Shown here in pieces: positions 11,123 through 45,062 of a stretch of 64,000 bases of DNA. Source of the DNA: Polyporus tsugae (lineage: Eukaryota > Basidiomycota > Agaricomycetes > Polyporales > Polyporaceae); assembly GCA_024305745.1 (NCBI GenBank), contig JAHRBS010000011.1, positions 186,001 to 250,000 on the forward strand, in the 5' to 3' direction. The notes beneath the pieces were generated by a model. It worked only from the letters and a program-made list of their open reading frames with translations. It searched no databases and was not told the origin of the DNA. The position numbers and the translations under genes were made by a program. The first letter of the stretch is position 1; each line of letters opens with the position of its first letter.

Positions 11123-11132
11123 CTCCCCCTCG
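11123..11132 (-). promoter_or_regulatory. Polypurine tract of the copia element
   Basis: On the element strand GAGGGGGAG directly precedes the 3' LTR, the expected position and composition of a plus-strand primer. Confidence 0.75.
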
Positions 11133-19668: not shown

Positions 19669-19671
19669 TCG
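19669..19671. repeat. Target-site duplication TCG, left of giant transposon
   Basis: TCG immediately precedes CACGCGAGG. The same three bases follow the mirror-image end at 45060-45062. Three-base duplications are typical of CACTA-type transposons. Confidence 0.8.
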
Positions 19672-19729
19672 CACGCGAGGAATTACAGTATTCGAGGCTG
19701 GTCAAAACGGAATGAATAATGACAATGCA

Positions 19730-20042
19730 GAATGTCACGTTTTGTACGATATTCGACCGTAGATAGAAATTGAAGTTTGACATTGCTCCGAATGCTCGCG
19801 AAAACTTACCGTTCCGGCCCGCATTCCGAGCCGCAGACAATATCACGTAGAACGTCACGTTCTACGATACGCCAAACGTCATCGGGAACTTGAGGTTCAG
19901 ACGAAAGTTTTGTATTTAAAGGAATTTCGAGTTTCACGCCCGGCAAAATGTCAGAAAGAACACGAAGTTTGCATCAACGTTTACGACCGACTAGAATTTC
20001 AAGTTTCACTTGTTACAAAACATTCACCGACATATCAAGTTC
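19730..20042 (+). promoter_or_regulatory. Subterminal array of phased 13-bp palindromic sites (left)
   Basis: Ten related 13-mers of form GAAnnTnnnGTTY begin at 19730, 19766, 19802, 19838, 19850, 19886, 19922, 19958, 19994 and 20030. Examples are GAATGTCACGTTT, GAAATTGAAGTTT, GAACGTCACGTTC and GAATTTCAAGTTT. The steps are exactly 36 bp except one 12-bp step (19838 to 19850). The 19850 unit is a perfect palindrome around a central C. CACTA elements carry subterminal repeats bound by transposase proteins, so I infer the same role. Units at 19838 and 20030 are weaker (9 of 13 positions match a neighbour). Confidence 0.7.
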
Positions 20043-20123
20043 TCCGCAAGACAAAACAGTTCGCCCGCTCTCGACGCGCCGACCACCCACTGAGTGCCCG
20101 CCAAGTAACCGCCGGATGTCTTA

Positions 20124-20427
20124 CTACGCGGCGCCGCCCGTGCCCGTCACGTTCGTCATGTTCTTCGTCTGGACCGGCGTGCCAGAACGTGGCGACGCGA
20201 GAGCCGGACGCTTCCCCGGGCTGTAAGCGAGTCAGTACGGGCGCGAAAGGCGGCTCGAGTGCATACAAATGCACCTGAGGGAAGGGGAGGAGCGACGAGC
20301 TGAGTCACGCCCGGCCTGTATGCCCTGGAAGGCCAAAATAGGCTGTAATAGGTTAGTGATTGAACAACAGACATCAGGAATGACATACCATGTACTTCAG
20401 CATGTTCTGAATGACAATAGGAAGCAT
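20124..20427 (-). CDS. Small spliced gene in left TIR (67 aa, model)
   Basis: Mirror image of 44304-44607. The model has three exons (mirroring 44304-44342, 44389-44456 and 44511-44607) with GT-AG junctions and CTAAC branch sites. The total length is divisible by three. The product starts MLPIVIQNMLKYM and ends TNVTGTGGAA. No family is recognised. Because it lies inside the inverted repeat, two copies are kept identical. It may be real, or a transcribed part of the repeat with chance splice signals. Confidence 0.35.
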
Positions 20428-20638
20428 GTTTGAGCTTGTGAGTGAGGGGAGGAGTTGGAGTGCAGAGATGGTGGTGGAGGAAAGGGAAGAGGGTGAAGGG
20501 GGAGTCCTGATGAAAACTTACAGCAGCGCGGGAACGTTGAGGGCTAGGACTGGGGGTGGTGATCGCGAGAGATTAACATTGTTTGTGGTATGTCAGAGAC
20601 AACCTTTGAAAACATCCTGGACAGTCAAAGACAGTAGG

Positions 20639-20942
20639 CTAGTACATCTTTTCGAATGCTGCGCCTCCATTTATCTGTGTGGCAAGTGATATTAGTGAAG
20701 TAAGGGAACATTGCGAACGGAGGTAAGACAGAATGCGTACCTCGCATACCCGGTAGTCGCGTCTACCTCCAAACGGTCGACCCAACCCATGCAAGTCGTG
20801 AGCTATGGCGGTGGAAGCGAACACGGAGGTTAGAGGGTTACGTCAGCAAAATCAAACATAACGCGATCGCGAGGAGACGGAACCACGTACCTTGCATTTG
20901 CGCCGTTGCGTTCGCCCACGTGGATTGCGCAGAGGCTTTGTG
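20639..20942 (-). CDS. Spliced gene fragment in left TIR
   Basis: Mirror image of 43789-44092. Three exons read KASAQSTWANATAQMQ, then AHDLHGLGRPFGGRRDYRV, then INGGAAFEKMY before a stop, joined in frame by canonical introns of 88 and 66 bp. A further upstream exon is probable. I do not recognise the product. The consistent frames through three exons favour a genuine gene duplicated by the inverted repeats. Confidence 0.4.
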
Positions 20943-21378
20943 CTGTTAACAGAACAAACGCGTCAGTGGACGAAGGACACGCGAGGGGCGGGCACCAAGG
21001 GCGTGCGTGTCAAATGGTTACGGCGGCGCCGCGCGAGTTCTGAGATCTGAGAGCCCAGGGCGTCGTGGAGGCGTCGCGAGAAGGCGGACGCAATGAACCG
21101 CACGCTCATGTAAGCCGTTATCGACCACATTTGCTCGACCGCGACGGTTGCACGACTCGTCCGGGCCCGTTGCATGCGCGTCGTTGTTTGGACTGAATTC
21201 AGATGAAAATTGCATGTGTGCAGACCAATGAGTAGAGAACGCGTACTGTACATTCATACAGATACATGCGATTGGTACTATCCGTAAAGGATTAGTATCA
21301 GATCATGCTGGGCGACAGGAAGTATGGAGACGTACATGATACATCGACTGACCGCGACAGGAGAGATCCCCAATTCAT

Positions 21379-24170
21379 CTACAACCTAATGCAAGTGTTG
21401 ATGCGAGGCAGAAAAGCGGCACTCTTCTCCGCCACGGCCGTCTGCAAGGGAAAGACTCCGCGCCAAAACGTGATAGTTGATCGCCAATCCTTCGCCGATA
21501 GAGGACCGTCGATACCATCCCTAATCCGCTTCAGACGCCGCTGGAACCAGTTCTCGCACCATGGCGTCCAATATCCGAACGCCAGCCCAGAGGTATCAAA
21601 TACGTTGGGTCGTGGCCACCAGGACAGTAGTTCCGATTGCGATCCGTGAGCTGTGTGTAAGCACATCAGTGATTGCGTCTGAAATAAAAGCATGAAGAGC
21701 CACATACTAGAGGGCAACTTGTACACACCACACAGGATGTCTATCTCGCCGGACGTCAAGGAATCATCATACAGAGGGACCCCTCGATGGGGCAAGAACT
21801 CCTGGCCAAAGGAGTAGATGTCTTCGGACGGCCCACTCACAGCCCGTTCCGCTGCATCACTGCCAAGGATCTCCAGAGCGAGTCTCCAGATAATTCCACC
21901 ATGCAATATCGCCGCCCGGCCTCGAGGTTGGCAAAGAACTTCATACCCCTGCGCAATGTATTGTCCGTAGTCATGTCGTGTGGCCTTGAATCCACGCGGG
22001 CGCCATCCCAAACAGTCGCCGAAAGAAGATGGTTGGTGGAAAAATGAATCTCTCCTTGTTGGGGAATACACAGTATGGAAACCGATCCCCTTCTGAACCA
22101 TCAACGAGATGGCGGACGCGCGGGAGCGGATGCCTTGGCGGCGGAGGAGCTCGACAGCAGTCGTCGCATCCACAAGAACGTCGTACCAACATTCCGGCTC
22201 GTTGATGTAGCGTATACAATAGTAGTCAACGCCAGACAGCCTCCAGAGCGTCGGACGCAGGGTATGATGCTCTCGACCCGGTTTCAGTAAGTACTGGGGG
22301 CAGCCAGGGTCGAGATCCCAAACCGCTGCGGAGATCGCAGAATTCGTCGAACGCTTCAAGGCGATGCCCAAGAACCCACTAAGAGCAGCGAGGTCGGCAC
22401 TGGTGAGGTCCATGGAAAGCACGCCAAAGTACTTCTGAACCTTGTTGCAATCGAACGCGGCATATTCCAGAGGAGGGCGCTCACCCTGTTCCGTAGCGGG
22501 TAGCACGCCTATGACGACACCGTATCGGTAGAATGCTACCTCTCGAAAACCTTCGGCAACGAATACGTGGCCAAGGAAATCCTCGCCGGCATAAAAGCGT
22601 TGGAGATCAGCCTCGAAAGATCGCGCGATGGTAGCTAGGGATGCCAGCGCGAGTAGAGACTCCTGGCTGGGCAGCTGTTGTGGGTGGGGGGCTGCCGGTG
22701 CGTACGGAAAGTCGTCATCGTCGAAGTAGTCCTCCTCCACGACGGGATCGTTGGAGAGCTTGGGGCAGATGTCCCACTCGTCGCGCCATGGATCGTAACG
22801 CTTGTGAGAGTTTGGATACATCTCCCACATGTCTCGTACTCCTCCGAAACGGACCTTCTTCCTGTAGTCACGATCAAGAAGATACCAAGGGACGGTGGAA
22901 TCGACGTCCCCGACCTCCATCCAAAGGTAAGTGTTTGTGGGACGGGTTGGGCAGGCGTACGTTGCCGCCTTCGCAGCTCGTGCTAGCCGCTTCTCCTTCT
23001 TCTCGGCAGTCTCAGTCTGCTCCCACTGTCGCCATTGCGCTTCTCTACGATCGAAGAATTGCTGGTAAGGCTCGCCAGCGCGCTGTCCTGGTCCATGGGG
23101 CAGACGACGCAGCTCATCGCTAGAAGGGATAGGGGTTGTGGCGGGGGTTTCGATAGGAGCAGGACATGATGCGGGAGGCATTCCAGAAGGGATGTCAGTC
23201 CAACGGAAGCATGGCTGGGGGTCTCTTGGATCCTCCGACGTAGGTACGATGGGTGCTTCATCGGCAGAACCAGGAAAGTACGGGCGGAGGTAGGGGTGAA
23301 GGCTCAGGACTTGCTCGCATAAGGAAGGGTCAAGCTTCCCCCCCGGGGCTGGCCATGAAATGTAGGTCGGAAGGTTCGCCTCGATCATGCATGGGGCATG
23401 TCTAGTCCACACCGTACAAGCAGGACCAGGCAGTGGATCAATGAAGGCACCAACTCGAAGCCCCGACGAAAGGTCTGCAATAGGACCGGCACGTAGTTCA
23501 TCTATCCAAGGCGCCGGGATTCCTACGTCCATGAGCACACTGGTCCAAGCAGGAGGGTCTTCCCCTGGAAATCGATATTGGAATAAGGCAATGGCTAGCG
23601 TACAACGAGAGGCGAGAAGGAAAAAGGCATCGCGTGAGCGCAATATAGCGCGCCTAGCGGATAGGAAGGTAGAGTAATCGTTCCGGTAGCCACATTCGGT
23701 GGGGAGGGGCCAGAAAGCGTCGAAAGGGAACTTTGCTTCGGGGATTTTGCTGATCCGTAGTAGCAACGTTTCACTGACGGCGTAAAGATTTTGTTCCAAG
23801 TCCTTCCAAGTCGTCAGGATGTCTTCACTGAGTGCGAAGCGTTTATTTTTCGAGACGATTGGGGGCTTACGAGGGTCGCAACTGAGCCGTGCAAGAAGCG
23901 ACGAGTCTGAATGAGAGCTTCGCAGCATGTAAGCCATCTCCGGTCCCTTATCAACGGCCCATATCGCTTTTCGCAAATCCCTCGCGGTCAGGCTTTGCTC
24001 CGGTTCGCCTATGCGCAGTCCTGGGAGGAAGTCGACTCGGGAGGGGTTGATGACGGTGAAGCATTGTTTTTCGAACCAGAAAGTCCGAGAAGGATGGAGA
24101 GTGCTGGAAAATGCGGGCAGGTGAGTATGACATTACATTAGTGTTGCAGGCAGACGAACCTGAGTGCCAT
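21379..24170 (-). CDS. 892-aa protein of unknown function carried by the element
   Basis: Proposed model: an 11-base first exon (24160-24170, ATG GCA CTC AG), a 56-bp intron, a large exon 24103-21708, a 57-bp intron with a perfect GTATGT donor (21651-21707) and a last exon 21650-21379. This gives 892 codons in one frame. An in-frame stop just upstream fixes the start. Features: GLRVGAFIDPLPG near residue 205, a charged helical segment (REAQWRQWEQTE, then EKKEKRLARAAKAA) near 340-370, and a Trp/Asp-rich stretch (DMWEMYPNSHKRYDPWRDEW) near 415. From memory, similar unnamed proteins are common in mushroom genomes, but I cannot give a function. It shares a divergent promoter region with the first kinase. 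Confidence 0.75.
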
Positions 24171-24731
24171 TGGGAGGTTGCTTGGAGGGTTGCCCTAAGT
24201 CTTGCCCAGTAGAAAGCGATTGGAGCAATGTTCTGTGCTGCGATTATAAGTCGACGCAGCAAGAATAGAGTGTACGGCAGATGAACGTACTCGAGAGCGA
24301 CAAGATCGCCCTGGACCAACGACAAGACCGGTGGCAATGGTGCAGCGCAACGCTGAGATAGATCCGGAGAGAACGAGTAATAACTCTGTTCGAGGACTGA
24401 GCGAGAGCGGGCGAAGGAGCGAGTGATAACTCTGCTCTGGATAGACGACCGACCTACGGAGCGAAGTTGTCTGGAGGCGACGGAGGAACTTGGGGTGGTG
24501 GGCGGGAGATTGCGATGGTGAATGGGACTCCAGGCGACGGTCGGTGGCTGGTCCTTATTGTGTTGGGTGCTTTGGCTGCGGGAGGGACCCTAAATAGGTA
24601 AGTCTGGGCAAATTCTTGTCTTATTCATCATCGTGCACACGCCGCGCGGCCCGCGCGCCATCCCTCCGGTTCCCGACCCTGACCCAACCACCACCCCATA
24701 ACCCCCTCCGGCCCCTCCCCGAACCTTGTAT
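24171..24731. promoter_or_regulatory. Divergent promoter region with two GAGTnATnACTC dyads
   Basis: Intergenic region between the 892-aa gene (minus) and the first kinase (plus). It contains GAGTAATAACTC at 24375-24386 and GAGTGATAACTC at 24421-24432. A block GAGAGCGACAAGATCGCC at 24292 is nearly repeated upstream of the second kinase (31811). A segment near 24596 (GGTAAGTCTGGGCAAA) resembles one before the truncated kinase (34938). Shared upstream blocks suggest cassette duplication of kinase genes with their promoters. Confidence 0.55.
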
Positions 24732-27073
24732 ATGCCCGAAGACCTTACCGTCCCCATCGTCCTCAATCTGGAGCCTCATTACATCAAGCTGCCCATCAAG
24801 AGCTGCTCGTCGTATCGCAAGCTCACAGCCCAGGACGTCCTCACTGCAGCCCGCGAGTTCTGTGTGGAGTACTACAATGTAACGGACTGGGTTCCCAATG
24901 ACGTGCCAATGCACCTCCGTTACATAAAGGAGAAGGTACGTAGCATCGTTAGGGTGGGTGGGTTCTTGCCTAAGTTGTCGTCTGCCAACTCGTAGTCGAA
25001 GGCGTTTGATCCCCATGATGGCGATGCGGATACAATTGCAGCTCTTCTCGGCCTCCCCTCCAAGCAAATCTTCAATGACGACAACGTGCGCCAGTACCGT
25101 GCAACTATGTGGTATAGAACGACGGGTTACCACGTCTCCTCGGTAGACGTACAACCCTCCCAGTTGCTGTCCGCCTTCAGCAAGGGGTGGAATCAACACG
25201 TCCACTGGTATGTCGTAGTATGTGGTATGTGAAGTTAAAAGTTATTCACTTGTCGCCTGCGTCTGACCCGAGCCTCCGTTTCCAGTGTCAACTGTTCCAC
25301 ACCACTGGCCCCATTATATCCCGAGGGATCGCGAACAAGTCGTCCGTGAGTCATTTCGTCAGGCCACCATCACATGCGATTACTCATAGCTACGTGTAAG
25401 AGCGCAATGCGTACATCAAAGCGATGAGACACAAAATCGCCCATCGGATGGAGAACGCAGTCGCTCCACCTTCCACTGTGTCAAAGTTTCCTGCAAAATT
25501 CGATGAAGTACAATCCTCCGAGACTCCTATCTGCATCGGCATTCGCCCTCTCGATTCATACGGACCTCACCCCGCTCTTTTCTGTCGCCCGTTCAACGAC
25601 GCGTACAACAAGAAAATGAAGCCTAGGGATGTCAAGGTCGACATGGGCCTCCCGGAGACGTTCAATATGAGTGTCTGGCTCGCCGCGTTCTGGAAGGCGT
25701 GTGCCGCAACTACCAAGAGCGAGAAGGAGTATGTCTCTGACATCCGCAAATTGCTCCAACAACTCATCGACGACCCCGGTCTCCGATGTGGTGCCGTGTA
25801 TCAAGATGGCGACGGCACGGTCTGCGAGTTGGATATGGAAGCGCGATGCAAGACCGCCCACGGTTGGGAGGCGCTCTACCTGGCCATCGAGTGCAAGGCG
25901 TGGAGCGGCTCGGGAGGAGACCCGATAGTGCAGGCCGTATTAGCGTACCAACGCGCGATTATGATGCCCGAGGTACGAAGAGCAACTACTCGGCTTCATC
26001 TTGATCTGATGTCTGGATTGCACCAGTTCAAGCACATCCTCCGGATGACTTGTTGTCCTTGCCTGATCATAGGCTTATCGAATTCGCTGATTACGGTTCA
26101 CACGGTGTATTTCAGCGACCGGGTCCACGGCACGATCCTCTTCACGGAGTCATTGGGTGGCAGTCAGACAAGCCAGATTGACATGGACCAAGTGGCGCCC
26201 TACTTCCAGATCATTCGAGACACTGCTGCGCAGTTGCGCAAGTGGTATGCGGAAGTCCATATTGGTACCGACGTTCCCCACGCACCCCATCTCTTTCCCC
26301 AGCCTTTGTCCGTCATCTCCCCTGCTGAGTCCACTGCTGCTGAGTCCGCCGCCCCTGAGTCCGCCGCCAGCCTCGGCCACCTCAATCTCGTCCTCCTCGA
26401 GAGAGTCGGCCCCCCCACGATGGCTCGCCGTTGCCTCTACAAGGGTATCATCAACCGGCTCGACGGCAGCGCTGCGTCCAGGGTCTACGTCAAGTTTGTG
26501 GTGAAGCGATACGGCAAGCTCCAACACGAACTGCTTGCCGATCACGGTTACGCACCGGCACTGCACTACTGCGCCGAAGTCATGCATGGCCTCACGATGG
26601 TCATCATGGACGAGCTGCGAGGCTACAGCCTTACCAAGACCTCCTCGAAGAAGTACACCACGATAGTCGAGCGCGATATCAAAGCAGCCCTCAATATCTT
26701 GCATGACCGGAATTTCGTGCATGGCGACATTCGGCCGCCGAACGTGGTGATCTCAGGCAATCATGCATCCCTCATCGACTTCGACTGGGCTGGGGTACAT
26801 GGAGAAGTGCTGTATCCACCCGACCTCAACCCGGACGTCCAGTGGCACCCCACAGCGGCGAGTGGTCAGCCCATCTTAGAGGAGCATGACCAGTTCATGT
26901 TGAAGCAGCTTACTGACACGAGTTCCGACACGGGTTCCAAAGACAAGAAGAGGCTGAGAGAGAGCGGTGGGGAGAGTGGACGGGCGTCCAAGAAGTCGAA
27001 AGTGAGCAGCGAAGGTCTTCGTTCGATGCCACCGCCCACATCTATCCCGTCTCGGCCGTCTCAGTCGTCTTAG
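24732..27073 (+). CDS. FunK1-like fungal protein kinase A (700 aa)
   Basis: Five-exon model (24732-24935, 24996-25217, 25286-25345, 25403-25972, 26027-27073), all introns in phase 0. The intron ending at 25402 would use a GAG acceptor and is the weakest junction. The N-terminal half has the FunK1-type lead-in ending in VQAVLAYQRAIMM (near residue 350). The kinase half has the catalytic loop HGDIRPPN (26719-26742), the metal-binding motif DFDWAG (26777) in place of DFG, and LEEHDQF. The tail is Lys/Ser-rich. FunK1 kinases are a large fungal family (Pfam Pkinase_fungal) with mostly unknown substrates. Catalytic residues appear present, so it may be active. Confidence 0.8.
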
Positions 27074-27572: not shown

Positions 27573-30500
27573 TCACATCGTGTGAGCGAGCGTCGCCACG
27601 ACGCGAATCCAATCGAATTTTTCGGATGACACCGCGAGCGTGTGGATTTGCTGGGGGTTCTGAGCCTTCAACCAGTCGGGATTGTAGAGCTGCTGCGGGA
27701 GCCGCCGGACGGGATTGCGAGTACTCTTGACCGTACCGTCCCGGAGTCTCTTGCCCGGTCGGGAACCCTGTCGGGAGAAGAGATCCCGGTCGAGGACGCG
27801 CTGTCGGTCGATGATCTCCATGTGATCGTCCATGGAACGTCGCCACTCGAGCACCTTGACGCGGAAGACTGTCTCTGGCAGATCATCGCAGGTGTCCTCA
27901 GAGCTCATACCATCAGCGCCTAAGAGGTTCAGGACCTTCTCGAGGAACCTCCAGACCGCAACATCAGACTCGGGATTCCCGACATGCAGCGCGATGACCT
28001 TCTGAACCGTGGCGTGACGGCGCTCGAATTTCTTCAAGGATATCATGAGCTCTAATCATTGAGTCGCGAGTCAGAGGAGCGCACTCACGTTGCGACGTCT
28101 TTGGTCAACCCTAGCCCTGTCTTTGACCCTCTCGTCTGCGAGTAGGACACGAGCCTCGCATTCTTCCGGCGTTTCGATGGTCCCCGTGGACTTGAGCTTG
28201 GGCTGTCCGCCCCTCCACGTCTGTCGACCACGGCAGAACTTGTCTTCGATCAAGTCGTTGATGTAATGATCGCTGATGCTGTTGTCGTTGATGAAGGTCG
28301 CGTTGTCAGCCTTGAACGTTTCCAAGAGGTGTTCGAAGATGATGTAGTTCCAGGGAGAGACGCTGCTGCCTGAAGTCCGCATATCGAAGCGGATGTTGGT
28401 AATGCTAGGTGCGTCCTCGCCGCGGGTATTGTAGGCCTCCACAGCGATGCGATCCGCCTCTTGGTGCCCATGCCAGTCCTTGTCAGTATCGATCTTGCAC
28501 TGCTTCTTGTAGAGCTCGCGCACCCGTCGCTGACGGGCACAGTCAGCGAGGTCACTTCGCCATCGTGGATCTATCCGACTTACCAAGAGCTCAATGCGTG
28601 TCTCGCGGTCGACTTCCGGCTCCGACTCCGGCGCCGATGTCGCAGACATCTGCCGCCGATGGCGCGGGGACGACTTCGGCTTCACTGTCTCGGCCATCTC
28701 TTTGCGCAGGGTCTGGCGGATAGCTTCCATGAGCTGGTTCACGGTCAGGGTATGAACCTCGACTCCGTCGCCAATCACCGTGGAGGGGCGAGATGTCGCA
28801 GTCCGCGGAACAGCGGATGGAGCGTCGTCGTCGTCGCTGTCGGAGCAGGCGGGTTGGGCTGCATCGTCTACGAGTTCCTATATATGACTTAAGCTCGATA
28901 TGTAGTGATATGGGGGATTTAAACTCACTGGCATTGCCGTCAGAAACATACGGGTCGATGAGCCGGCCTTGTTCTTGGAGTGCGTACGGTGTGCGACATT
29001 GGAACGAGGAAGGGTCGCTCGAGTCGAAGAGGCAAACGGTCTGGGAGGAGCAGCGAGTAGTGGTTGGGCAGGCATAGCTGGGGCGGCGTTGCGAGGACGA
29101 GCTGATTCAGCCCTCGCCTGTTGCAAAAGGCGAGACACAGATGCCTGCTGGTTCTCCACTGCCGCGCGATGCTTCTCGACAGCAGCCTCCCTCTCAACCA
29201 GTAGCGCTTCCCGTTCGCGGAGATCTACCGCCATCCTGTCCTGTTCCGCCTCCTTCGCCATGAGCTGTGCTTGCGCTCCTTGGATCGCTTGGTGCTGCGC
29301 AGTGATACGGACTTCTTCGGCCTGGACCTTGTCCCGCAGTTCTGATTCCTATACCCACAAGTCTGTGAGCGTGAATCCGTGAGGATTCAGAGACAACGTA
29401 CCGCTGCAGCTCGAGTTGAATTCATGAATGCCATCAGCTGGGCTGTTTGCTCTTGCAGCTTGCCAACCGTAAGATCGTTCTGCTGCTGAATTGTCTGCCA
29501 ACGACTAGTAGCCTCGGCATATTGCTGTAGGTCAAGGTCAAGGTCAGTGTGTAGGCATGACTAGAGCCCAAGAGCACCATCCCACCTTCTTCAGTTCATT
29601 GTTCTGCCCTCGACGATACTTGGATACATCTTTCCAATAAGCGACTTCACCTCGGAGGCCTCCGGAAGCCGGTTCATGGTCACGGCGCTGGCGGACGGCG
29701 CGCGTGTTGTCACCATCACGGCCATAGCGAACAGAGTCCTGGTAGAAAAGTACGGTGAGTATGGGAACAACGTAATGAGGCGCAAGTTACTGTACCTCCA
29801 GCCCACCCATGTCGTCGTCTTCACTGCGGACGTCTGCGGAAGTGGGTTCATGTTCGCGGCGCTGGCGGACCCGGGCCGCGGGCGTGTTGTCACCGTCAAG
29901 GTGACGGCGAACCTCGATAGAGTCCTAGTGGAAGGGTATGATAAGTGTGGTTGGACAGACGCTAACGAGTGGTGAGTACCGTACCTGCATGTCGTCGTCG
30001 TCGTCGCAAGCTTTAGGCGTACTGTGTCCAGAATGTGGCTCGGACATAAGAAAGTTCTCCTCGGGAAGGGAAGTGACGTCGCCGTCGTTCGTAGGGCGCA
30101 CCGACATCGGAGTGAGGGACCGTGAGCTCTCTTGGAAGGAGCCGGGAACATGCAAACGTGAGATAGAAGGAGTAGGGTATGAAGGCAGAATCGAGTGGGC
30201 GCGTGGGGTAGCATACAAAGAGTCGTCTGTCCCCTCGTCCTCCGAGGACTCGAATGCGCTGCGAGCGGTGGCGTACATTTCAGAACCAGTCGACGCGTCA
30301 ACGTCATCGAGGGAAAAGTCCATTGCGGTCTGGGCAAAGGAGTCTGGAAGGGGCATCGCGGGGCAGTCGAAGCGGGTGAGGGCGTTAGGGAAGCGTTGAG
30401 CAGTCTGCGCGCAGCACAGATTGGAAGGGGATGCGTCGAGCGGACGTGCGCACCAGCGCGGAGTGATGCAAGAGGACGTAGAAAGCGGGAGTGGTGCGTG

Positions 30501-31629: not shown

Positions 31630-32109
31630 CAGCTAGTTTGAGGGTACAGGGTGATGTAATGCTGCGATTGCAACGATACGAAAACAGACTGTACGCTGAG
31701 GACTCCACAAGCTGAGAATAGTGTCCGAGCTGTGCTGCAAAGAGACCGACATCCAAGTCGTCAGGACATTGGGCAGGGACATTGGGCAGTGTATGGCATA
31801 TGGGAGTACTCGAGAGCGACAAGATCACCTTGAACCAAGGACAAGACCGAAGGAGCGAGTAATAACTCTGCTCTAGAGAATTGCCCGGGGACGAGGGATT
31901 GGGTCAGTACGTGGTACGTGCTTAGCGCTTAGCCCGTACACGTCGAGCCTTTGTGACGAGCCTTTGTGACGCATCACGCACCATATCTGTGTCTTGACTC
32001 TTACTAATCGTGAGCATATCCACGCCACCCTCCTGGTATCTCCCACGACCCTGACTCTCCTCCCTCCCATCACCCACCTGCATGTCCCCCATCCTCTCCT
32101 CTACTGCAC
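31630..32109. promoter_or_regulatory. Upstream region of kinase B with a GAGTAATAACTC dyad
   Basis: Contains GAGTAATAACTC at 31857-31868, preceded by AGGAGC as in the kinase A promoter. The block GAGAGCGACAAGATCACC at 31811 is nearly identical to one at 24292. A stretch at 31700-31760 (CCACAAGC, then GAGCTGTGCTGC and AAGAGACCGACAT) recurs in altered form at 35885-35945 downstream of the truncated kinase. Confidence 0.5.
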
Positions 32110-34621
32110 ATGGAACTTCGTTGCATGTCCAACTTGGACCCTCATTACCTCCTTCTGAAGTTTGACGTCCCCTATCACCTCCTCACCGCCCAGAAGGTCA
32201 TGGACAAGGCTCTCGAGGCTTGTCGAGCTTTCTACACTAGGCTAGAGTTTCCCGACCCGCCGCAGCCGCCGACGGTTTATGGACTCCACTACATAACTGA
32301 TAAGGTGCGTAAAGAGGATTCAGGGAGGTCAGAACAGCTGGCTAAAGTCGTTGCCTATCAAATTGTAGTCGGCTGCTTTCAAGTTGAAAGACGCGCAAGC
32401 CGCCGTTTACGACATCTGCCGCACCCAGCGTGGGCACCCCGACTTCGTAACACAGGCGGGTGGCTGGTATAGAAAATCGGGCTACTGTCTGGCTTCCCGA
32501 TACGTAGACCCCGCCGCCTACCTCACGTCCGAACCTATGCCGGAGGATGGAGTAGTGCAATGGTACTTTGTCGTGGGCGATAAGAGTACGTACACAAGTA
32601 TCATTTCTGGTATTCCTCCCGCCGTCGTCTTACCCATACTTCCATCCCCAGTCATTGAAAAGGCGGGCGATTGCACCCACACCCCTAACACGGCGCTAAG
32701 TGTTAATAGGCTACATTCTTGTGGGTCATTCCTCCATGAGATCGTCACGCGCGATGACCAATCCTTCACCTTCAGCGCGCAGGGACTACATAGAGCGGGT
32801 GAAGAACAAGCTGCGCATACTGGGGACAGTGGAATCCGCGCCCAGCGCCGTGGCGAAGAAAACTGAGGCGTACGACTCCGTAATGGAGAACACTCCCGTC
32901 GCGATGGGGCGTCGCCCTGGTACATCATATGGACCGTGCGCCTCAATTTACTCGCCCGCCTTTGCAAAGGCGCTCAACGACCTCGAGCGCTCTCAGCTTG
33001 AACATGTCACGATCGAGACGGTACCAACACCGGACCCCCAGTCCTTGACCATGGACGAAGACGCGGAGTGGGATACCATGGACGAAGACGAGGAGTGGGA
33101 TACCATGGACGAAGACGAGGAGTGGGATGCCTTCAACCTCTTGCCGTTCGATATGCGCACGTGGTTCGCCAAGTTCGTCGACGTCAACGACAAGCCCGCG
33201 GACGAGCGTATGCTCAATAAACGAGCTCACAGGCTGTTACAGAAGTTCTTCCACGACTCGCCCCTCGTGCTGCATGACAGGCGCCCCGAGACCGAGCTGG
33301 ATATGAAGGGAGAATGCACGACTGCCCACGGCTTTCGCGCCCTCTGGTTCGTTTACGAGGGAAAGGGTTTCAATTGCGTTGGAGGGGCGGCTGAAGTGCA
33401 GGCCGTGTACGCGGTACAACGCAGGCTTATCGCGGATCCAGGCGTGAGAATCATAATTCTTGGTTTGCGTATCTTCATCTCACATCTATTTTGCACCAGT
33501 ACGCGTTCGTGCTCCGGACGACCGCCTGCCCTGTTCTGCTCATGGCTATGTCTGGTAGTCTCGTGTTCTTTTACGCCGTCTATTTCACCGATAAGATGTA
33601 CGCCACGCGCCTCTGCCAACTTTCTCTGGACGGTCACGCACGCGACACGGATGATGATCTCACGAGCGAAGCCAAGCTCCAGGTCATGCGGAACACCGGC
33701 CGGATGTTGCGCGAGTACTACACCAACCTCCACACCGGTTGCACCTTTTCCGACACGCCTCAACTCTATCCCCAGCCTGCGTCTATCTTCTCCCAGCATC
33801 CTTTGGCCACCCCCGCGTCCATTGCCGAAGTCACCTCCCTCAATATCTCCCTCCGCGACCGAGTCCCCGACTCGAAGGGCCGTTTTAATACCCATCGTTC
33901 TCTCTTCAGGGGCACAATACAGCGCAAGGACGACCCCAACCCCGTGGATGTCTACGTCAAGTTCTTGAAGCACTACGGCAAGGAGGCACACTCTTACCTC
34001 GCGTCTCACCACCCCCCCTTCGCGCCGCAGCTCCTGTACTGTGGCGAAGTTGTGACTCGCTACATGATGGTTGTCATGGAGGACTTACATGGGGAACCCA
34101 TTGACCCGTCCCTCCCTGATGACGTCAGCGGCGTCATCCAATCGCAGGCCGAGGCAGCCCTCGAAGTCTTACATGCAGGCGACTTCGTGCATGGCGACCT
34201 GCGCGCGCCAAACATCGTGCTACAGTCCGACACACGGCGCGTGTACTTCATCGACTTCGACTGGGCTGACAAACAAGGAAAAGCGAAGTATCCGATCCGT
34301 CTCAACCCGAAGATCAGATGGATACGCCCTGCGCACCTACTGGCGGGTCACGACATCCAGAAACATGACGACCGGTGCCTGCTCCGACGAGAGCTCGTTC
34401 AGGTGCTGGGAGATAAGTATGTCAAGGAGAATAACACGTTGGGCAAGAGGTCGACTGCGAGCAAGGAGGATGACGATAACAGGCCTTCCAAGAGGTTGAG
34501 GGGAACAGACGAGCCGCCCCCCAGCTCGAGGGTGGCCTGCGCGCCCATGGAGTCCCTACCCCCCGAGGAAGGCAGTGGTATTGGCATAAGCGCGCTAGCG
34601 GGGCAGGTCGCCGCGATCTAG
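32110..34621 (+). CDS. FunK1-like fungal protein kinase B (755 aa)
   Basis: Four-exon model 32110-32304, 32369-32585, 32710-33443, 33500-34621, in one frame throughout. The N-terminal part parallels kinase A (DPHYLLLKF versus EPHYIKLPI; AEVQAVYAVQRRL versus VQAVLAYQRAI). The kinase domain shows YVKFLKHYGKEAHSYL, the catalytic loop HGDLRAPN (34190-34213) and DFDWAD (34252). The C-terminal tail is basic and Pro-rich. A 27-bp triplicate (about 33049-33129) encodes an acidic DEDEEWDTM repeat before the lead-in domain. The last intron sits at the same place as in kinase A and the truncated copy. Expected to be a Ser/Thr kinase; substrate unknown. Confidence 0.85.
33049..33129 (+). repeat. Three tandem 27-bp units in kinase B
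   Basis: Three near-identical units encoding ACCATGGACGAAGACGAG-type sequence, giving an acidic D/E/W repeat in the protein. It is absent from kinase A. Confidence 0.75.
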
Positions 34622-37251: not shown

Positions 37252-38962
37252 ATGCTGGTGTCATTGCCTAACTTAAACCCCTTCACATCCCCCGGTGGAC
37301 GCTATAGGCCCATCGCGACCTTCAATAACAACCTGAGGGGTGTAAACAGTCTCAGCTTCTCCAAAGACGGACATTATCTCGCTAGCGGCGGTGAGTACAT
37401 TGACCATTTCGATCCCAAAAGACTTCAGCCGCTGACCCGGGGCAGGAGGAGACGGAGTCAAATTATGGGATTTACGGACCAAGTTGGCTGTCCCTACCCC
37501 TCCGCACCGTGAGACCTTGGGCCCAGTCACCAGGGCGTTGTGGGTTGGAGGTAGCGACGCTGTCTACCCCACGCTCTGTTACGGTACTGGACTTGGGTAC
37601 CTGTGCCTTTGGAACCAGGGTGCAAAGAGCGTGAGTTGCCGCGACATGTCTCTTGAAGAACGTTGGACTCACCGCTGCTTTCAGGACCGGTTCATCGAGG
37701 TCTTCGAGAAGCGACTTGCCGACGGCGTGGAGATCACGGCTTTGGGATGTGCAAACGGCAACGGAACGGACGCGCGCATTGCTGTCGGTACACGGAAGTG
37801 CGTCATACAGGTCTTCCAGTACGACGGGCGAGGAGATGTCAGTCCAATCTTCTCCATTCGTCTGGAACGCGTCGTACCCAGTTATCTTGAGTTCACGTCC
37901 AACCAACGAGACGTGCTGGTCTTTGGAATGTATGACGGAGTGATGTAAGTCATCTGAAGAGCATTTCGCAATTTTTTAGCCTGAGTCGACTTATCTAAAC
38001 GCAGGTACACGCTAGGCAACAGCAATGGAAAGGTGCTTAAATCGAAGAGCCTCGGCCAAAAGATGTAAGCAAGTCGGAATACTAAGAAGTTGATGTATAG
38101 TGCTGAGACAGTTCAGAGGGTACGCTTCTCTACCTCCCAAACAACACCTAGTCGTTCTCGACAATATTTCCAACGGATTCGACTTGTGGGACCTGGACGT
38201 AGGAACACATCTACGCACCTTTCCAACCGGAACGCCTACTCGTTTCCTGCCTCGGCAGGTTGTCTTCGCGGAGAGGTGGAAGTCCATCGTAGCTGGAAGC
38301 GACCACGGGGCTGTGTACGTCTTCGACAGAACAACGGGTGCGCCGTTGGACGTATTGCGCCATGCGGCGAAGGGTCTGGTTCAGACTGTGGCGGTGAGCG
38401 AGTATCAAGCGTTGACAAAAAGGGACACTGACGTCGAAGATAGGCAATTGATCGAGACGGATACTCCGTGATTGCAACTGGGTCGTCAGGCGAACAGGGT
38501 GTCGTTACCCTGTGGCAGAGCAAGAAGCTGTTCGCCGACTCGTTGAGGCCGAAGTCGATGTGGTCTCTGTATCGCGTGCTTAGCTTCGCGGTGCAGCTTG
38601 TTATGGCTTTGGCCACAATCACCTTCATCTTTCAGAACCTGGGGTTCCGAGTAAGCGATTTGCCGCATGGGTTGTGGTTTTCCTACTTACGACGCAAACA
38701 GGTTGACCTCCCGGCTTGGTTAGTTCCCGTCCGAACCAACAGCTTCAACCCGCAGGAGCCAGTGGCTGCTGCTCATGCAGTCACGCGGCGTAGTGTGAAG
38801 ATCGCACGGTCATCCAACAGCAAAGGCCACAGCACGGGAAGCGCGGCACCAAGAGAAATGTACCAGGAGGGGGATTGGGCGGCTTGGCAGGAGTGGAAGG
38901 CCTACGTTGCGAGTCAGCGAGGTGGTGCGCCGGGGAGGGCAGGGCGGGTCATTGTACTGTAG
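37252..38962 (+). CDS. WD40-repeat protein with a membrane segment (462 aa)
   Basis: Seven exons: 37252-37390, 37446-37630, 37685-37944, 38005-38064, 38117-38393, 38444-38650, 38702-38962; the lengths sum to 463 codons. Beta-propeller blades are visible: VNSLSFSKDGHYLASGG and GVKLWDL (residues about 30-60), GYLCLWNQG (near 100), then NGFDLWDL, KSIVAGSDHGAVYVFD and YSVIATGSSGEQGVVTLW up to about 320. A hydrophobic segment (FAVQLVMALATITFIF, near 350) follows. The C-terminal 85 residues are polar. WD40 proteins with a tail anchor would place a scaffold at a membrane; partners unknown. It is one of the best-preserved cargo genes. Confidence 0.82.
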
Positions 38963-39654: not shown

Positions 39655-42600
39655 ATGCCACGGTTCCTGCAGTATTGTCGCTGCGAAAGCTGCGTCTTGG
39701 GTTGCGCGGACGCGTCTAGAGGGAAGCCATGGTCCGACAAGTTGAAATGGAACTTGCACAGTCGGTCCCTCCGCGAGAGAACCACCTCTTTGTCACCATC
39801 TACCACTCACCCAGACGACTCTCCCGGACCCGTCGCACCATCGATCGAGGATCGTTCTTTCAACCTATTCGCATCTGTTCTTGTTGGAGATGCACCAGAT
39901 CCTTCTAGGATGGCACTCACTACTCGTTCCGTCGTCGAGACGTCGACGATACTGGCTCCTGCTTCTTTTGAGATGGAAGACATACTCGAGAGCCTCTCGC
40001 GCATACACCTTTCTTCCCTACCGAACGACACACCGCACGCTGCATCTCCTGCAATGGATGATGTTGCTGACTCCCTCCGCAACCTTCAACTTCATAACTC
40101 TCACGATATCCCACCCAGTATCCCGCCTCCCAACCTTGCTCCTCACCCCGCGCCCCCCAGCCCCCCCGGACCTGGAGCCGCTGCGAGCACCCCGTTAAGA
40201 ACGGACAAGCGCGACACTAATGTTGCTACCAAGCGGGCCTTGCAGACGCTGGCACACATCGAGGATCACGTACTACTCCTCGAGGGCTCGCTCGCGGCGC
40301 CATCCGAAGAACAGCTTGGGAGCGCGGAGGCTGAACTATCGCGTCTGCGTTCCATGTTCCTACGCGTTACTCGGACCACGAATCTGGTGCTCACGCGGAA
40401 GGAGGAGACAAGATGTCATCTACAACGAATCGGCAGCCGTATCTGCGAGCTGAGACACCTGATGCCGGCGCCGTCCTTGCCGCACAAGCCCATCCCTTAC
40501 GATTGTGGTAAGTCAACTTTTGAAAAGGTAAAACAACGCAGCTGACGTACTTTTCAGGACACCATTACGACATCCCTGCGAGTCGTGCTCACGTCGTGGC
40601 GCAAATCGCCATGTTCCTTGGGATCGTGCTCAATGTCCTGGGGAAACTAAGTCGGGAAGGGTCGGACTTTCTTCTGGGGTGCCTATCGTTTTTACTAGGT
40701 TTATCCTTCAAGTCTTCGGGAACGCCCATCACCCCCCTTCAGCAGAACATCCTCTCTCAGATCCCCACCAATCTCAAAGGAGCTCTAGAGCGATTCAACC
40801 TCTCTGCCCATACTACGACGTACGCGGCGTGCCCCACTTGTCATTTTGTCTACCCACCTTCCACCACGCCCGACAGTGATAATCTCGTGTATCCTGCTCG
40901 GTGCAACAACCGACGGAGACCCGGCGGCTCGATCTGCAATGCCCCATTGCTGGACCCACGCCTAACGAGCGACGATCAGAAGCCCGTTCGACCCTACGTT
41001 GTACACGATCTCAAGGAATATGAGAGCGGTCTTCTCTCCTCCGAGGATAACGTACGCCTCATCAACGCCTCCTGCGATGAGACTATGGCCGAGGTTCGGC
41101 GCGATGAACCCCCTCCCTTTTTCGTCACTGGGCCATTTCAGGCACAATTTGTACGGACCTTCGTCTTCGACAAGCAATCAAATCGTCTATTCATTGATCG
41201 GGGAAAGGAGATCCGTCTGCTCTTTGCCCTGCATGTCGATAGCTTCAATGTTGAGGGCATGTCTGTGCGTGGGGCGTCGACCTCTTGCACCATCATCTCA
41301 CTGGCATGTCTCGATCTTCCTCCCGAGATCAGATACAAGTCCGAGAACATCGGTCTCATCGCCATCATCCCAGGCCCACGAGAACCCCATCTGACCGAGC
41401 TGAACTACTACCTGGCCCCCGTTATGGATGCGTTTTGCGAGTCGTGGGAGCGAGGTACGCAACATTCACGCGTCGCCCTGCACTCTGGTGGTTGTGTATC
41501 TCGGTCGGCCATCGCTGCTGCTGTCATGGATCTCGTCGCCGCCCGCAAAACGTCGCAACTCGCGTCCCACTCTGCACATATCTATTGCCATGTGTGCACC
41601 TGTTCAGGAAAGAGTACGCGCGGACGCACCGACTTCCAGCAATGGATATTCCGAGACCCTAAGGAGATGCGTAAACACGCGGAGGCATGGCGGGACGCGA
41701 CTAGCGTCTCGGAGCAAGATAAGATATTCGCCCAGCACGGCGTTCGTTGGTCAGAGCTTTGGCGATTACCTTACTGGGATCCAACCCGTCAGCTTGTCGT
41801 CGACTCTATGCACTGTATATTCGAAGGCCTCATTCCCTACCACTTCCGCGACATCCTCGGTTTAACGTCCGCGAACGCAAAGGAGACAGAAGTCCTTCCG
41901 CCCGCCTTCGAACATAACTTCGCTACCGTGGGCATCGAAGGAAACAGCCGTCTGCCTGAGAAGGCGCGGCTCTCGGACAAGGAAGTTGGACAAGTGGAGT
42001 CCATCGGCCACGCCCTTTGTCAACATATCGGCCACAGCGCAGAGGAGCAGGAGAAAGGGCTCGAGGACCTCCACCGCAGACTGTTGAGCAAGAACCTGAA
42101 GGCTTTAAGTTTCGTCGGGCACGGCCTGGAGCTTCCTTCGAAGGCAAAGATGACAAAACGGCTGTGGGTGGATGCACTTGTGGCATGGGCAAGTATCTCG
42201 TGTTCTCACTCACACAGGCAAGAATCTAACCCCATGTATCTAGCGTCGATTAAGGCCGCTCTCTGCGAATCCCAGTGCGAAGAAGATCACAACACTGGAG
42301 GTTATCGATCGCATCCGCGACGTGATCTGCCACTGTGATAAGCCGTCTTGGCTTAGCTCCGTTCCTCGAAACTTCGGCGACGCAGCCGCAGGGACTCTGA
42401 AGGCTGACGAATGGAAAATCATGTGTACCGTCTACCTGCCGATCGCTCTCGTCACTCTATGGGGTGTTGGCTCCTCTCATGCCACCCCTGAGATTGGCAT
42501 ATTCTTCCGGCGCGTCCTCGATAATACCATGCTCCTCGTATCAGCCGTTGTCGTGCTGTGCAAGCGAACCATGTCCGAAGCGCGCGCGCGCAAGTACCGT

Positions 42601-43481
42601 GCTTACATCGCAGACTGGCTTCGCGGCCTGCAGGAGATTCATGCAGGTTCATACTCTGATCGGACGAATAACCACGTTGCCTTTCATATATTCGATTTCT
42701 TGCTTCTGTTTGGACCCGTCTACTCGTGGTGGTGTTTCCCTTTCGAGCGCCTTATCGGACAGCTGCAACGCATACCTCACAACGACAAGTTTGGTGAGTT
42801 TTCTCTGAGATGAATGAAATACTTTATTCTGACAACGACTGCACAGGTCAACTAGAAGCGAGTTTGATTGACTCCTTCCTGAGGGCAGCCAAGCTCCGAC
42901 GGTGGCTTAACAGGTCTGACTGCCCGGAAGCTCTGCGCCAAGTAAAGTGTTTCTTCGACAAAGCCTTCGGTAGCTGGAACTTCAATCCCACCACCTCTGA
43001 CGCCGACTGTCCCACTAAACATCATCCCTCAACGCCTAATCCGAGTATTCCCGCCGACTTGTTCCCCCTGCTTCCCCCAGATGACCTCTGCCGACTGACC
43101 TTGCTGGCCCGTTGTAAACACGAAGGTCACACGCTCGCCAGATCATCAACACATGTCGGTAACAGCCTCGTTCTGTATTATCCGCGAGAGCAGCCGTCCA
43201 CTGCCGAGTATGGGTCTATCGAGTACATCTACCAGGTCGATCAGCGCTTCGTGTTGGCGGTACGACGTCATCTACCAACTTCAGGAAACGATCCGTTCAA
43301 ACCCTACACGGATTTCCCGGCCACGGTCCGATCAGCTCAACTTGGTCCGCTGGAAATAATCGATCAGACAAGCGTTGTTTGCCACTTCCTTCGGTGGAAG
43401 ATGCCGACGGGCGACATGGTTGTCTTGCCCTTGTACAAGGTTGGCTATTTGTTTCAGGTCCGATGCACTACACTGACATGA
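39655..43481 (+). CDS. Tnp2/CACTA-type DDE transposase (1,222 aa)
   Basis: Four exons: 39655-40507, 40558-42188, 42244-42793, 42847-43481, giving 1,222 codons without a stop. The start MPRFLQYCRCESC carries the paired-cysteine motif usual at the N terminus of basidiomycete Tnp2-like proteins. A disordered region and a heptad-like helix (residues about 195-250) follow, then a hydrophobic helix near 300 and zinc-type cysteines (CPTCHF with SICNAPL). Catalytic candidates are D512 in HVDSFN, D700 in the family hallmark VDSMHCIFEGL and E996 in WWCFPFERLIG (this segment belongs to the DUF4218-like part). CHVCTC lies near 625. Intron 2 is a GC-AG intron (donor GCAAGT at 42189). It should cut and join the element ends in the nucleus. 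Confidence 0.92.
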
Positions 43482-43788
43482 ATTCTCAGGATTAAGTAGC
43501 TTAAGTAGTTCGAGTATATGTAGTACGAGTACTGATGGTGAGACCATGAGTTATGCAGTTATGTTTACTTGTTCTTGGAAATGTCGCGCGATAGCAGCCT
43601 TCACATGAAGAGCACTTCCTGTCCTACTCCCATTGCATTGCGCCCGCCTTCTCGCGACGCCTCCACGACGCCCTGGGCTCTCAGATCTCAGAACTCGCGC
43701 GGCGCCGCCGTAACCATTTGACGCGCACACCCGTGGTGGCCGCCCCTCGCGTGTCCTTCGTCCACTGACGCGTTTGTTCTGTTAACAG

Positions 43789-44092
43789 CACAAAGCCTCT
43801 GCGCAATCCACGTGGGCGAACGCAACGGCGCAAATGCAAGGTACGTGGTTCCGTCTCCTCGCGATCGCGTTATGTTTGATTTTGCTGACGTAACCCTCTA
43901 ACCTCCGTGTTCGCTTCCACCGCCATAGCTCACGACTTGCATGGGTTGGGTCGACCGTTTGGAGGTAGACGCGACTACCGGGTATGCGAGGTACGCATTC
44001 TGTCTTACCTCCGTTCGCAATGTTCCCTTACTTCACTAATATCACTTGCCACACAGATAAATGGAGGCGCAGCATTCGAAAAGATGTACTAG
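43789..44092 (+). CDS. Spliced gene fragment in right TIR
   Basis: Exons 43789-43840, 43929-43990 and 44057-44092 join in frame (50 codons including stop) with canonical introns. Peptides: HKASAQSTWANATAQMQ, AHDLHGLGRPFGGRRDYRV and INGGAAFEKMY. An acceptor GTTAACAG precedes the first exon, so an upstream exon is expected (possibly ending near 43718 at GCCGCC/GTAACC). The same gene exists inverted at 20639-20942. Family not recognised. Confidence 0.4.
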
Positions 44093-44303
44093 CCTACTGT
44101 CTTTGACTGTCCAGGATGTTTTCAAAGGTTGTCTCTGACATACCACAAACAATGTTAATCTCTCGCGATCACCACCCCCAGTCCTAGCCCTCAACGTTCC
44201 CGCGCTGCTGTAAGTTTTCATCAGGACTCCCCCTTCACCCTCTTCCCTTTCCTCCACCACCATCTCTGCACTCCAACTCCTCCCCTCACTCACAAGCTCA
44301 AAC

Positions 44304-44607
44304 ATGCTTCCTATTGTCATTCAGAACATGCTGAAGTACATGGTATGTCATTCCTGATGTCTGTTGTTCAATCACTAACCTATTACAGCCTATTTTGGCC
44401 TTCCAGGGCATACAGGCCGGGCGTGACTCAGCTCGTCGCTCCTCCCCTTCCCTCAGGTGCATTTGTATGCACTCGAGCCGCCTTTCGCGCCCGTACTGAC
44501 TCGCTTACAGCCCGGGGAAGCGTCCGGCTCTCGCGTCGCCACGTTCTGGCACGCCGGTCCAGACGAAGAACATGACGAACGTGACGGGCACGGGCGGCGC
44601 CGCGTAG
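44304..44607 (+). CDS. Small spliced gene in right TIR (67 aa, model)
   Basis: Exons 44304-44342, 44389-44456 and 44511-44607; introns of 46 and 54 bp with GTATGT and GTGCAT donors. The product begins MLPIVIQNMLKYM, continues PILAFQGIQAGRDSARRS and ends GTPVQTKNMTNVTGTGGAA. It is basic and Ser-rich; no family known. Duplicated in the other arm. Confidence 0.35.
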
Positions 44608-44688
44608 TAAGACATCCGGCGGTTACTTGGCGGGCACTCAGTGGGTGGTCGGCGCGTCGAGAGCGGGCGAACTGTTTTGTCTTGCGGA

Positions 44689-45001
44689 GAACTTGATATG
44701 TCGGTGAATGTTTTGTAACAAGTGAAACTTGAAATTCTAGTCGGTCGTAAACGTTGATGCAAACTTCGTGTTCTTTCTGACATTTTGCCGGGCGTGAAAC
44801 TCGAAATTCCTTTAAATACAAAACTTTCGTCTGAACCTCAAGTTCCCGATGACGTTTGGCGTATCGTAGAACGTGACGTTCTACGTGATATTGTCTGCGG
44901 CTCGGAATGCGGGCCGGAACGGTAAGTTTTCGCGAGCATTCGGAGCAATGTCAAACTTCAATTTCTATCTACGGTCGAATATCGTACAAAACGTGACATT
45001 C
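44689..45001 (-). promoter_or_regulatory. Subterminal array of phased 13-bp sites (right)
   Basis: Exact mirror of 19730-20042: ten 13-mers at 36-bp steps with one 12-bp step, positioned 59 to 371 bases from the element end on each side. Inferred to be binding sites for the transposition complex. Confidence 0.7.
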
Positions 45002-45059
45002 TGCATTGTCATTATTCATTCCGTTTTGACCAGCCTCGAATACTGTAATTCCTCGCGTG

Positions 45060-45062
45060 TCG
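45060..45062. repeat. Target-site duplication TCG, right of giant transposon
   Basis: Matches TCG at 19669-19671. The predicted empty site reads GCAGAGAC-TCG-GCTGCTGGCG. Confidence 0.8.

Follow-up and report, generated by a model that had tools for sequence, protein, structure and literature searches.

Does the 25-kb segment between two long inverted repeats in the genome of Polyporus tsugae move as a single transposon, and do the genes that it carries beside a transposase belong to the element or to its host? We analysed a stretch of 64,000 nucleotides (assembly GCA_024305745.1, contig JAHRBS010000011.1, positions 186,001 to 250,000; hereafter the window) and compared it with the remainder of the assembly. 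The locus, here called element A, is very probably a complete and recently active CACTA/EnSpm (Tnp2) transposon from a group of giant, mutually related Tnp2 elements (25–37 kb). New here are families B and C, related giant Tnp2 elements with accessory genes in common with A. The mushroom-forming fungus that had been proposed as host fits the 43.2 Mb assembly and its 32 matches (7 of them below the cut-off) to PF20152/DUF6534, which we take to be a marker family of Agaricomycetes.

Ends and gene content of element A

Element A occupies positions 19672–45059 of the window (25,388 bp) and is bounded by terminal inverted repeats (TIRs) that are 99.65% identical, with 5 mismatches and 0 gaps. CACGCGAGGAATTACAG opens both ends and TCG flanks each side, so that the original prediction of 1,424-bp inverted repeats with identical tips and a TCG target site duplication (TSD) was correct in both respects. 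The following features were assigned:

19669..19671, no strand, left copy of the TSD (TCG), from the sequence; TCA/TCA in the copy on contig C11
19672..21095, plus strand, left TIR, 1,424 bp, tip CACGCGAGG, from sequence comparison
21379..24132, minus strand, ORF917, a 917-codon frame (stop to stop) with relatives in B and C, in an old copy of family A and at sites where no giant element is mapped
24702..27073, plus strand, kinase-like gene 1; upstream exons ~24702-24935 and ~24996-25229 (splicing approximate), main frame 25400-27073, ATG 25424, 549 aa
27573..29348, minus strand, candidate coiled-coil protein gene; open-frame blocks 29348-28878, 28877-28071 and 28055-27573
32014..34621, plus strand, kinase-like gene 2, 37% alike to its paralogue gene 1 in the C-terminal part (exon borders approximate)
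37252..38962, plus strand, WD40 protein gene, 499 aa; exons 37252-37390, 37449-37944, 38005-38064, 38108-38393 and 38444-38962
39655..43481, plus strand, Tnp2 transposase gene, 1,222 codons plus stop; exons 39655-40507, 40558-42188, 42244-42793 and 42847-43481
43636..45059, minus strand, right TIR, 1,424 bp, from sequence comparison
45060..45062, no strand, right copy of the TSD (TCG), from the sequence

Nucleotides ~475–962 of the left TIR share 66% DNA identity, with many gaps, with sequence near the ends of family B. A gene inside the TIRs was considered for this region and rejected: it is only 35–41% alike as protein versus 66% as DNA, and because of this lower likeness as protein we read it as conserved non-coding DNA. 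Short subterminal repeats in the TIR of A did not rise above the shuffled background; in family B, CCACTCATCGGC occurs five times against a shuffle maximum of 2.

Transposase and superfamily placement

The transposase of A matches PF02992 (Transposase_21) with 34.9 bits at a cut-off of 28.6. The 1,222 codons had been described as uninterrupted, which holds for the spliced four-exon model only, since no open frame in the unspliced sequence of this locus exceeds 604 codons; the second of the three introns is of the GC-AG type. When the whole genome was scanned with PF02992, A (36 bits) and C (35.2 bits) exceeded 28.6, and two family-B genes remained below it (25.0 and 24.8 bits) despite a likeness to the transposase of A across the whole exon. 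An unrooted tree of nine Tnp2 segments splits A, B and C from five others with a support of 1.000. Candidates for the DDE residues and the C(2)C motif of the CMC group were read from the alignment of these segments: C-x2-C and a D before LxAxRK are present in 9 of 9. Eight segments keep the D in the LxVD block, with N at C1:5469k, and eight keep the D of D-x-M-H, with N in family C, for which reason family C may be dead. The motif D-x-[LM]-H-x3-L-G is described for transposases of the superfamily in PMC1636069; A and B read VDSMHC(I/L)(F/L)EG, with E for L, and all five other aligned segments keep the L. Between the Tnp2 genes of two family-B copies dN/dS is 0.91 on 20 changes.

All three families have CAC..GTG termini (CACGCGAGG in A, CACTTCGGG in B, CACTTTGGG together with CACTTCGGG in C). 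The literal CACTA pentamer is absent from the tips, which read CACGC in A and CACTT in B and C; we regard it as typical and not defining, since the fungal member CNIRT6 also deviates (CACTG). Element A is a giant multi-gene variant of CACTA/EnSpm, and the earlier label "CACTA-like" is apt for the transposase superfamily, though not for the tip pentamer.

Families B and C and their shared gene set

The ends of B and C were given by a tip search with 8 matches versus 0 in the reversed control. Family B on C15 has its tips at 2185081 and 2212938 (27,858 bp), with ATT on both sides and 762-bp repeats; family C on C1 has its tips at 4738768 and 4776091 (37,324 bp), with AAT on both sides. The 3-bp duplications match in all four elements with both tips, namely TCG (A in the window), TCA (A on C11), ATT (B) and AAT (C).

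Five gene types are common to A and B, and four of these occur in C; the kinase gene is present twice in A and once in B and was not detected in C. Identities between A and B amount to 35%, 48% and 37% for the Tnp2 exons, 33% for the kinase, 34% for the last coiled-coil block, 37% for a WD40 exon, and 28% and 32% for parts of ORF917, and accessory proteins are ~28–41% identical across the families. Because ORF917, the last coiled-coil block and WD40 recur in both B and C and the kinase recurs in B, much of the "cargo" of A appears to be a conserved gene set and not a private load. The giant cargo-bearing element of the original prediction is hence retained as a mobile 25.4-kb Tnp2 unit with extra genes, many of which it shares with its relatives.

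Accessory genes: element functions or host cargo

Kinase, WD40 and coiled-coil genes had all been predicted and all are present, WD40 by its match to PF00400, the kinases by motifs at scores below the cut-offs and the coiled coil by eye. The five-exon WD40 model, chosen among eight fitting splice variants, reaches 29.6 bits with PF00400 (cut-off 27), and a hydrophobic segment close to the C terminus was noted by eye. Its matches in the same genome all lie in giant-element sequence (13/13, five of them outside family A), where the match at C1:5301154 was counted as element because it lies just beyond sequence colinear with family B. The coiled coil, a candidate call, was seen in 28878-29348; the blocks scanned gave no Pfam match and the middle block no PDB match. 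The last block is common to A, B and C, with six of six genomic matches in giant elements (three outside family A). All four matches of the middle block are in family A only, and its dN/dS between A and the old family-A copy is 0.40. ORF917 matched nothing in Pfam or NCBIfam and nothing convincing in PDB, and a structure model made without an alignment has a mean pLDDT of 34. Its dN/dS values against the old copy are 0.47 and 0.60, and 8 of its 17 genomic matches, one of them at 40%, are found at C3, C8 and C17, outside any mapped giant element.

Both kinase-like genes carry HGD(x4)N and DFD motifs (HGDIRPPN and DFD in gene 1, HGDLRAPN and DFD in gene 2) and score below the cut-offs for all Pfam families listed. 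FunK1 (PF17667) was rejected as their family, with 12.9 bits versus a cut-off of 24.1 for gene 1 and no place among the families listed for gene 2. A Bud32/KEOPS identity was rejected as well, as the best NCBIfam matches of 1.9e-7 and 1.1e-6 (30.8 and 28.3 bits) compare with a cut-off of 125 bits, and Bud32/KEOPS is weakly suggested as a fold-level lead only. A structure model of kinase 1 without an alignment has a mean pLDDT of 33. Kinase matches lie mostly outside mapped elements (36/47, and 20/27 in another search), including an intact relative, 90% identical, at C4:417616. With dN/dS at 1.00 between gene 1 and this relative, 0.82 between gene 1 and the old copy and 0.60 between the C4 relative and the old copy, gene 1 seems to be under no clear constraint. 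Kinase places near Tnp2 outside giant elements numbered one within 10 kb (p 0.10), one within 30 kb (p 0.28) and three within 45 kb (p 0.005), as counted from 22 hand-merged kinase places and 14 Tnp2 places, with the sizes of two contigs guessed. The kinase is less closely tied to the elements and looks like true cargo because 36 of 47 matches are outside elements and none is in C; captured cargo or a fast-evolving anti-host factor is the likelier reading.

For ORF917, coiled-coil and WD40 we favour, with some reserve, the reading that they probably serve the element itself as accessory transposition factors, in regulation or in escape from silencing, and are not host cargo. In this genome the coiled-coil and WD40 genes were found only in giant elements, and all three genes have been kept across families in which ~60% or more of residues differ. 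That the accessory genes are instead ordinary captured host genes, and the element a Starship-like carrier built on a DDE enzyme, seems unlikely to us. The distribution of the kinase relatives, the intact relative on C4, fast evolution and the ORF917 relatives without a mapped giant element would all fit such an origin, but the confinement of WD40 and the last coiled-coil block to giant-element sequence would not, and cargo would be expected to vary and to have a host original, whereas this gene set recurs across families only ~28–41% alike. It is improbable that A is a nested mosaic, in which smaller inserted elements brought together the genes of several transposons. Gene order and orientation do differ between A and B, and on C1 the copy of B has been rearranged; against this, the five gene types in A and B and the four in C sit in elements with complete ends, and the sole repeat longer than 100 bp inside A is its own pair of ends.

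A second copy and evidence of movement

A second full copy of family A lies at C11:1721599-1746986 and differs from the window copy (C14:205672-231059) at 8 of 25,388 positions; four of these differences cluster in a 17-bp part of the left repeat, and the other four are scattered, all C/T at CpG. The flanks are unlike those of the window copy, the TSD is TCA, and the likeness ends within 2–4 bases of the TIR tips. As judged by this comparison, two copies on two contigs with 8 differences and unlike 3-bp duplications (TCG, TCA) establish that all 25 kb moved together, as a unit bounded by the TIR tips. Nor are the ends of A a chance finding, since the full-length C11 copy starts and stops at the same tips with another 3-bp duplication. 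The recent movement proposed earlier is supported by this near-identical copy with its own TSD, and the possibility, raised at the same time, that the repeats belong to a larger inversion is contradicted by a copy bounded exactly by the TIR tips. Flanks joined in silico at both copies provide a model of the empty site only. Insertion into a gene was considered for the two copies, and open frames cross both joins. The suggested genome search for further copies succeeded by long alignments, on which our copy calls rest; a search for the A tip that allowed up to 3 mismatches found 5 matches versus 8 in the reversed control and alone proves nothing.

We consider it very improbable that the second copy is an assembly artefact, with one element placed twice: near-identical repeats are known to mislead assembly, and polishing might have introduced the clustered differences, but the flanks are unlike on both sides at both loci, and proper but unlike TSDs are not made by misassembly. 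Segmental duplication or gene conversion, for which near-identity over 25 kb and the tract-like cluster of four differences might speak, is hardly credible given that the likeness stops within 2–4 bases of the tips, that flanks and TSDs (TCG, TCA) are each copy's own and that the 3-bp pattern is the same in B and C.

For the transposon reading, the superfamily suggests a course of events: the Tnp2 DDE transposase would bind the long TIRs and excise the element, joining to a staggered cut would duplicate 3 bp, and copy number would rise through transposition around replication or through repair of the donor site.

Implications and comparison with known systems

These elements offer a natural test case of whether DDE cut-and-paste enzymes can move units of 25–37 kb in a eukaryote, where efficiency is reported to drop above ~6 kb of cargo (PMC6431247). 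As the same accessory genes recur, what was called "cargo" becomes a set of element functions open to testing, and the near-identical pair of copies allows an easy presence/absence comparison in related isolates. The findings also suggest that giant gene-carrying elements can arise in fungi by a second route. A more far-reaching idea, which we put forward as tentative and rather doubtful, is that of giant DDE transposons of a class not yet described, which would rely for movement or persistence on Tnp2, ORF917, the coiled-coil protein and a membrane-linked WD40 protein, with a kinase acting on host transposition control, as a second, independent giant-element solution in fungi beside Starships.

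No description of giant or cargo-bearing CACTA elements in basidiomycetes was found among the open-access titles and beginnings of abstracts listed. EnSpm families of rusts have CAC..GTG termini, 3-bp duplications and a CMC-group transposase (PMC12730594), and for CNIRT6 of Cryptococcus neoformans CACTG tips and one transposase gene are described (PMC12810828). A CMC-group transposase is probably common to these fungal elements and ours, but in place of the single gene of CNIRT6 the present elements have 25–37 kb, three to five further genes and TIRs of 1,424 bp (A) and 762 bp (B). The statement that CACTA elements usually carry only transposition genes has exceptions, such as the enlarged multi-ORF En/Spm of the red alga Chondrus crispus with 16–20 kb and 4–5 ORFs (Kojima et al. 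2013, via PMC6431247), likewise large, yet smaller than the present elements and in a red-algal host. A 20.5-kb CACTA element of soybean (PMC2613891) is also large and putatively autonomous, but from a plant; both are likened by description only. Rust IS3EU elements, which carry alpha-kinase and TET/JBP genes (PMC12730594), resemble ours as fungal DNA transposons with a recurrent non-transposase kinase gene; they differ in the transposase superfamily and, by name, in the kinase family, the kinase here being weakly Bud32/protein-kinase-like. Starships, which move by a tyrosine-recombinase captain, reach up to hundreds of kb and are also reported from the basidiomycete Tremella (PMC13066641), are likewise large, fungal and equipped with genes other than that of the transposition enzyme. 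The proposed analogy to them is apt for size only, as no recombinase family appeared among the 20 ORFs scanned with Pfam; the present elements differ from Starships in their Tnp2 transposase, their long TIRs and their largely conserved gene set.

Ends, transposase and copies of the family A element

The family A element spans 25,388 bp (window 19672-45059) and is bounded by inverted repeats of 1,424 bp that contain 5 mismatches and have identical tips, with TCG flanking each side. Transposase_21 was found as Pfam match within the open frame 40524-42338, and joining of four exons yielded a Tnp2 of exactly 1,222 codons with no stop. Repeat alignment and splicing bear out the coordinates, tips, TCG duplication and protein length of the original prediction, while its description of Tnp2 as uninterrupted holds for the spliced model only; in the DNA the gene is split by three introns, one of them of GC-AG type with a CTAAC branch-like site (by eye). 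For family A genes other than Tnp2 and WD40 exon borders are approximate.

Within the same genome (43.24 Mb in 18 contigs, with the window at C14:186001-250000) a search revealed a full second copy at C11:1721599-1746986, which differs from the window copy at 8 of 25,388 positions. Four of these fall in a 17-bp stretch of the left repeat (window 20992-21008), representing either a conversion tract or a polishing error, and the other four are scattered and all C/T at CpG. The two repeats of the C11 copy differ at a single base only. The alignment of both copies stops within 2-4 bases of the tips, the flanking sequences are unlike and the 3-bp duplication is TCA at the C11 copy versus TCG in the window; judged from sequence, this combination is characteristic of a 25,388-bp unit that has transposed in its entirety. 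The family A tip pattern (≤3 mismatches) gave 5 genome matches versus 8 for the reversed control and is not decisive alone. An older copy at about C14:557-582 kb retains one end, ORF917 (an open frame of 917 codons), kinase 1 and parts of the coiled-coil gene with ~92-98% nucleotide identity in the retained parts; its tip is decayed, and no Tnp2 was present there among the matches listed.

Other features observed in the window
Window 1-1914 and 60828-62753: 1.9-kb inverted repeat (95%) close to both window ends, with ends TCTGTTCACAGTT and AACTGTGAACAGA, respectively; two open frames that overlap this repeat are without Pfam match
Window 10795-17165: copia-type LTR retrotransposon, 328-bp direct repeats with 99.1% identity, RVT_2, integrase and gag matches
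Window 29591-30695, minus strand: two overlapping open frames, 327 and 250 aa long from their start codons, which may be non-coding; the longer has no Pfam match and no clear family B relative among the matches listed
Window 34940-35569: open frame resembling (by eye) a truncated N-terminal part of a third kinase; no match in the Pfam scan
Window 56657-58553: clustered short direct and inverted repeats of ~30-120 bp

Further giant elements in the genome

Several divergent places in the genome match family A proteins. From the end common to two of these we read a second tip, CACTTCGGGGGTTTCGTCATG, which gave 8 genome matches versus 0 for the reversed pattern, and two tip pairs delimit complete elements.

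Complete elements of families B and C
C15:2185081-2212938: family B, 27,858 bp, flanked on either side by ATT, with 762-bp repeats
C1:4738768-4776091: family C, 37,324 bp, flanked on either side by AAT

A second family B copy at C1:5272930 has kept its left tip, beyond which family B sequence is inverted and duplicated; tip search and alignment gave no right tip. A partial copy starts at C14:943027. The family B Tnp2 genes score slightly below the PF02992 cut-off. In an unrooted tree of nine segments the Tnp2 of families A, B and C are split from five other Tnp2 segments of the genome with support of 1.000. Outside the giant group, a Tnp2 pair (L034, C1:3669340-3673611; L035, C5:1085753-1090024) shares 99.6% identity over all 4,272 bases compared and is, by this likeness, an additional recent duplication.

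Gene set of the giant elements

Between the open frames of families A and B, identity is 35%, 48% and 37% by exon for Tnp2, 33% for the kinase, 34% for the last coiled-coil block, 37% for one WD40 exon, and 28% and 32% over two parts of ORF917. Gene order and strand are not alike.

Gene order (strand)
Family A: ORF917(-), kinase(+), coiled-coil(-), kinase(+), WD40(+), Tnp2(+)
Family B, as stored: WD40(-), Tnp2(+), coiled-coil(+), kinase(+), ORF917(+)

Family C carries Tnp2, ORF917, the last coiled-coil block and WD40, with no kinase among the own-genome matches listed. All of the at least 6 listed matches of the last coiled-coil block (at least 3 outside family A) and all of the at least 13 of WD40 (at least 5 outside) lie inside giant-element sequence, these counts being lower bounds because only the best candidates were scored; one WD40 match, C1:5301154, lies 154 bases beyond the end of a colinear alignment and was assigned by extension of this alignment. 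The chance that 3 of 3 coiled-coil matches outside family A fall within giant elements is ~6e-8, taking these as ~0.39% of the genome with two spans approximate. Against an element-bound set count ORF917, with 8 of 17 listed matches on C3, C8 and C17, away from any mapped giant element; the middle coiled-coil block, matched in family A only; and the kinase, with 36 of 47 listed matches outside giant elements.

Selection and kinase relatives

Compared with the old copy, family A gave dN/dS values of 0.47 and 0.60 for two parts of ORF917, 0.40 for the middle coiled-coil block and 0.82 for kinase 1. Since the old copy has stops in every gene compared, some of its divergence probably accumulated neutrally, and constraint on the live lineage may be stronger than these ratios indicate. 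Kinase 1 has an intact, 90% identical relative with 547 open codons at C4:417601-419270 (L066), on a contig from which Tnp2, ORF917, coiled-coil and WD40 are absent among the matches listed. Over 537 stop-free codons (12 gapped codons excluded) kinase 1 and this relative show 63 non-synonymous and 19 synonymous changes, with a dN/dS of 1.00; the relative and the old copy gave 0.60. All four kinases compared retain the HGDxxxxN and DFD motifs. Between two family B copies dN/dS of Tnp2 was 0.91, from 20 changes.

Proposed roles

CACTA elements are mobilized by a DDE transposase through cut and paste at a 3-bp staggered target, and the giant elements would be expected to share this chemistry. As the accessory set is kept over deep divergence and two of its genes are found only in elements here, we consider it more likely than not to provide functions of the element itself. 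In En/Spm, TnpA stands beside TnpD; by analogy ORF917, which adjoins one end, would be our first candidate for a second factor that acts at the DNA ends or in regulation. The kinase would be more like captured cargo in its behaviour.

Comparison with known systems

EnSpm elements of rusts are described as ending in CAC..GTG and having 3-bp duplications, and among other fungal DNA transposons IS3EU repeatedly carries kinase genes (PMC12730594). CNIRT6 is a fungal CACTA element that is active (PMC12810828), and in Chondrus EnSpm elements are reported to be enlarged to 16-20 kb and to hold 4-5 ORFs (PMC6431247). Starships are tyrosine-recombinase elements, with Tremella now among the reported hosts (PMC13066641). 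The TE library of Marasmius oreades contains elements of up to ~42 kb, of unspecified kind (PMC9674265). By domain, duplication and termini the giant elements found here are to be classed as members of the CACTA superfamily, and by size and gene set as a giant multi-gene variant of it.
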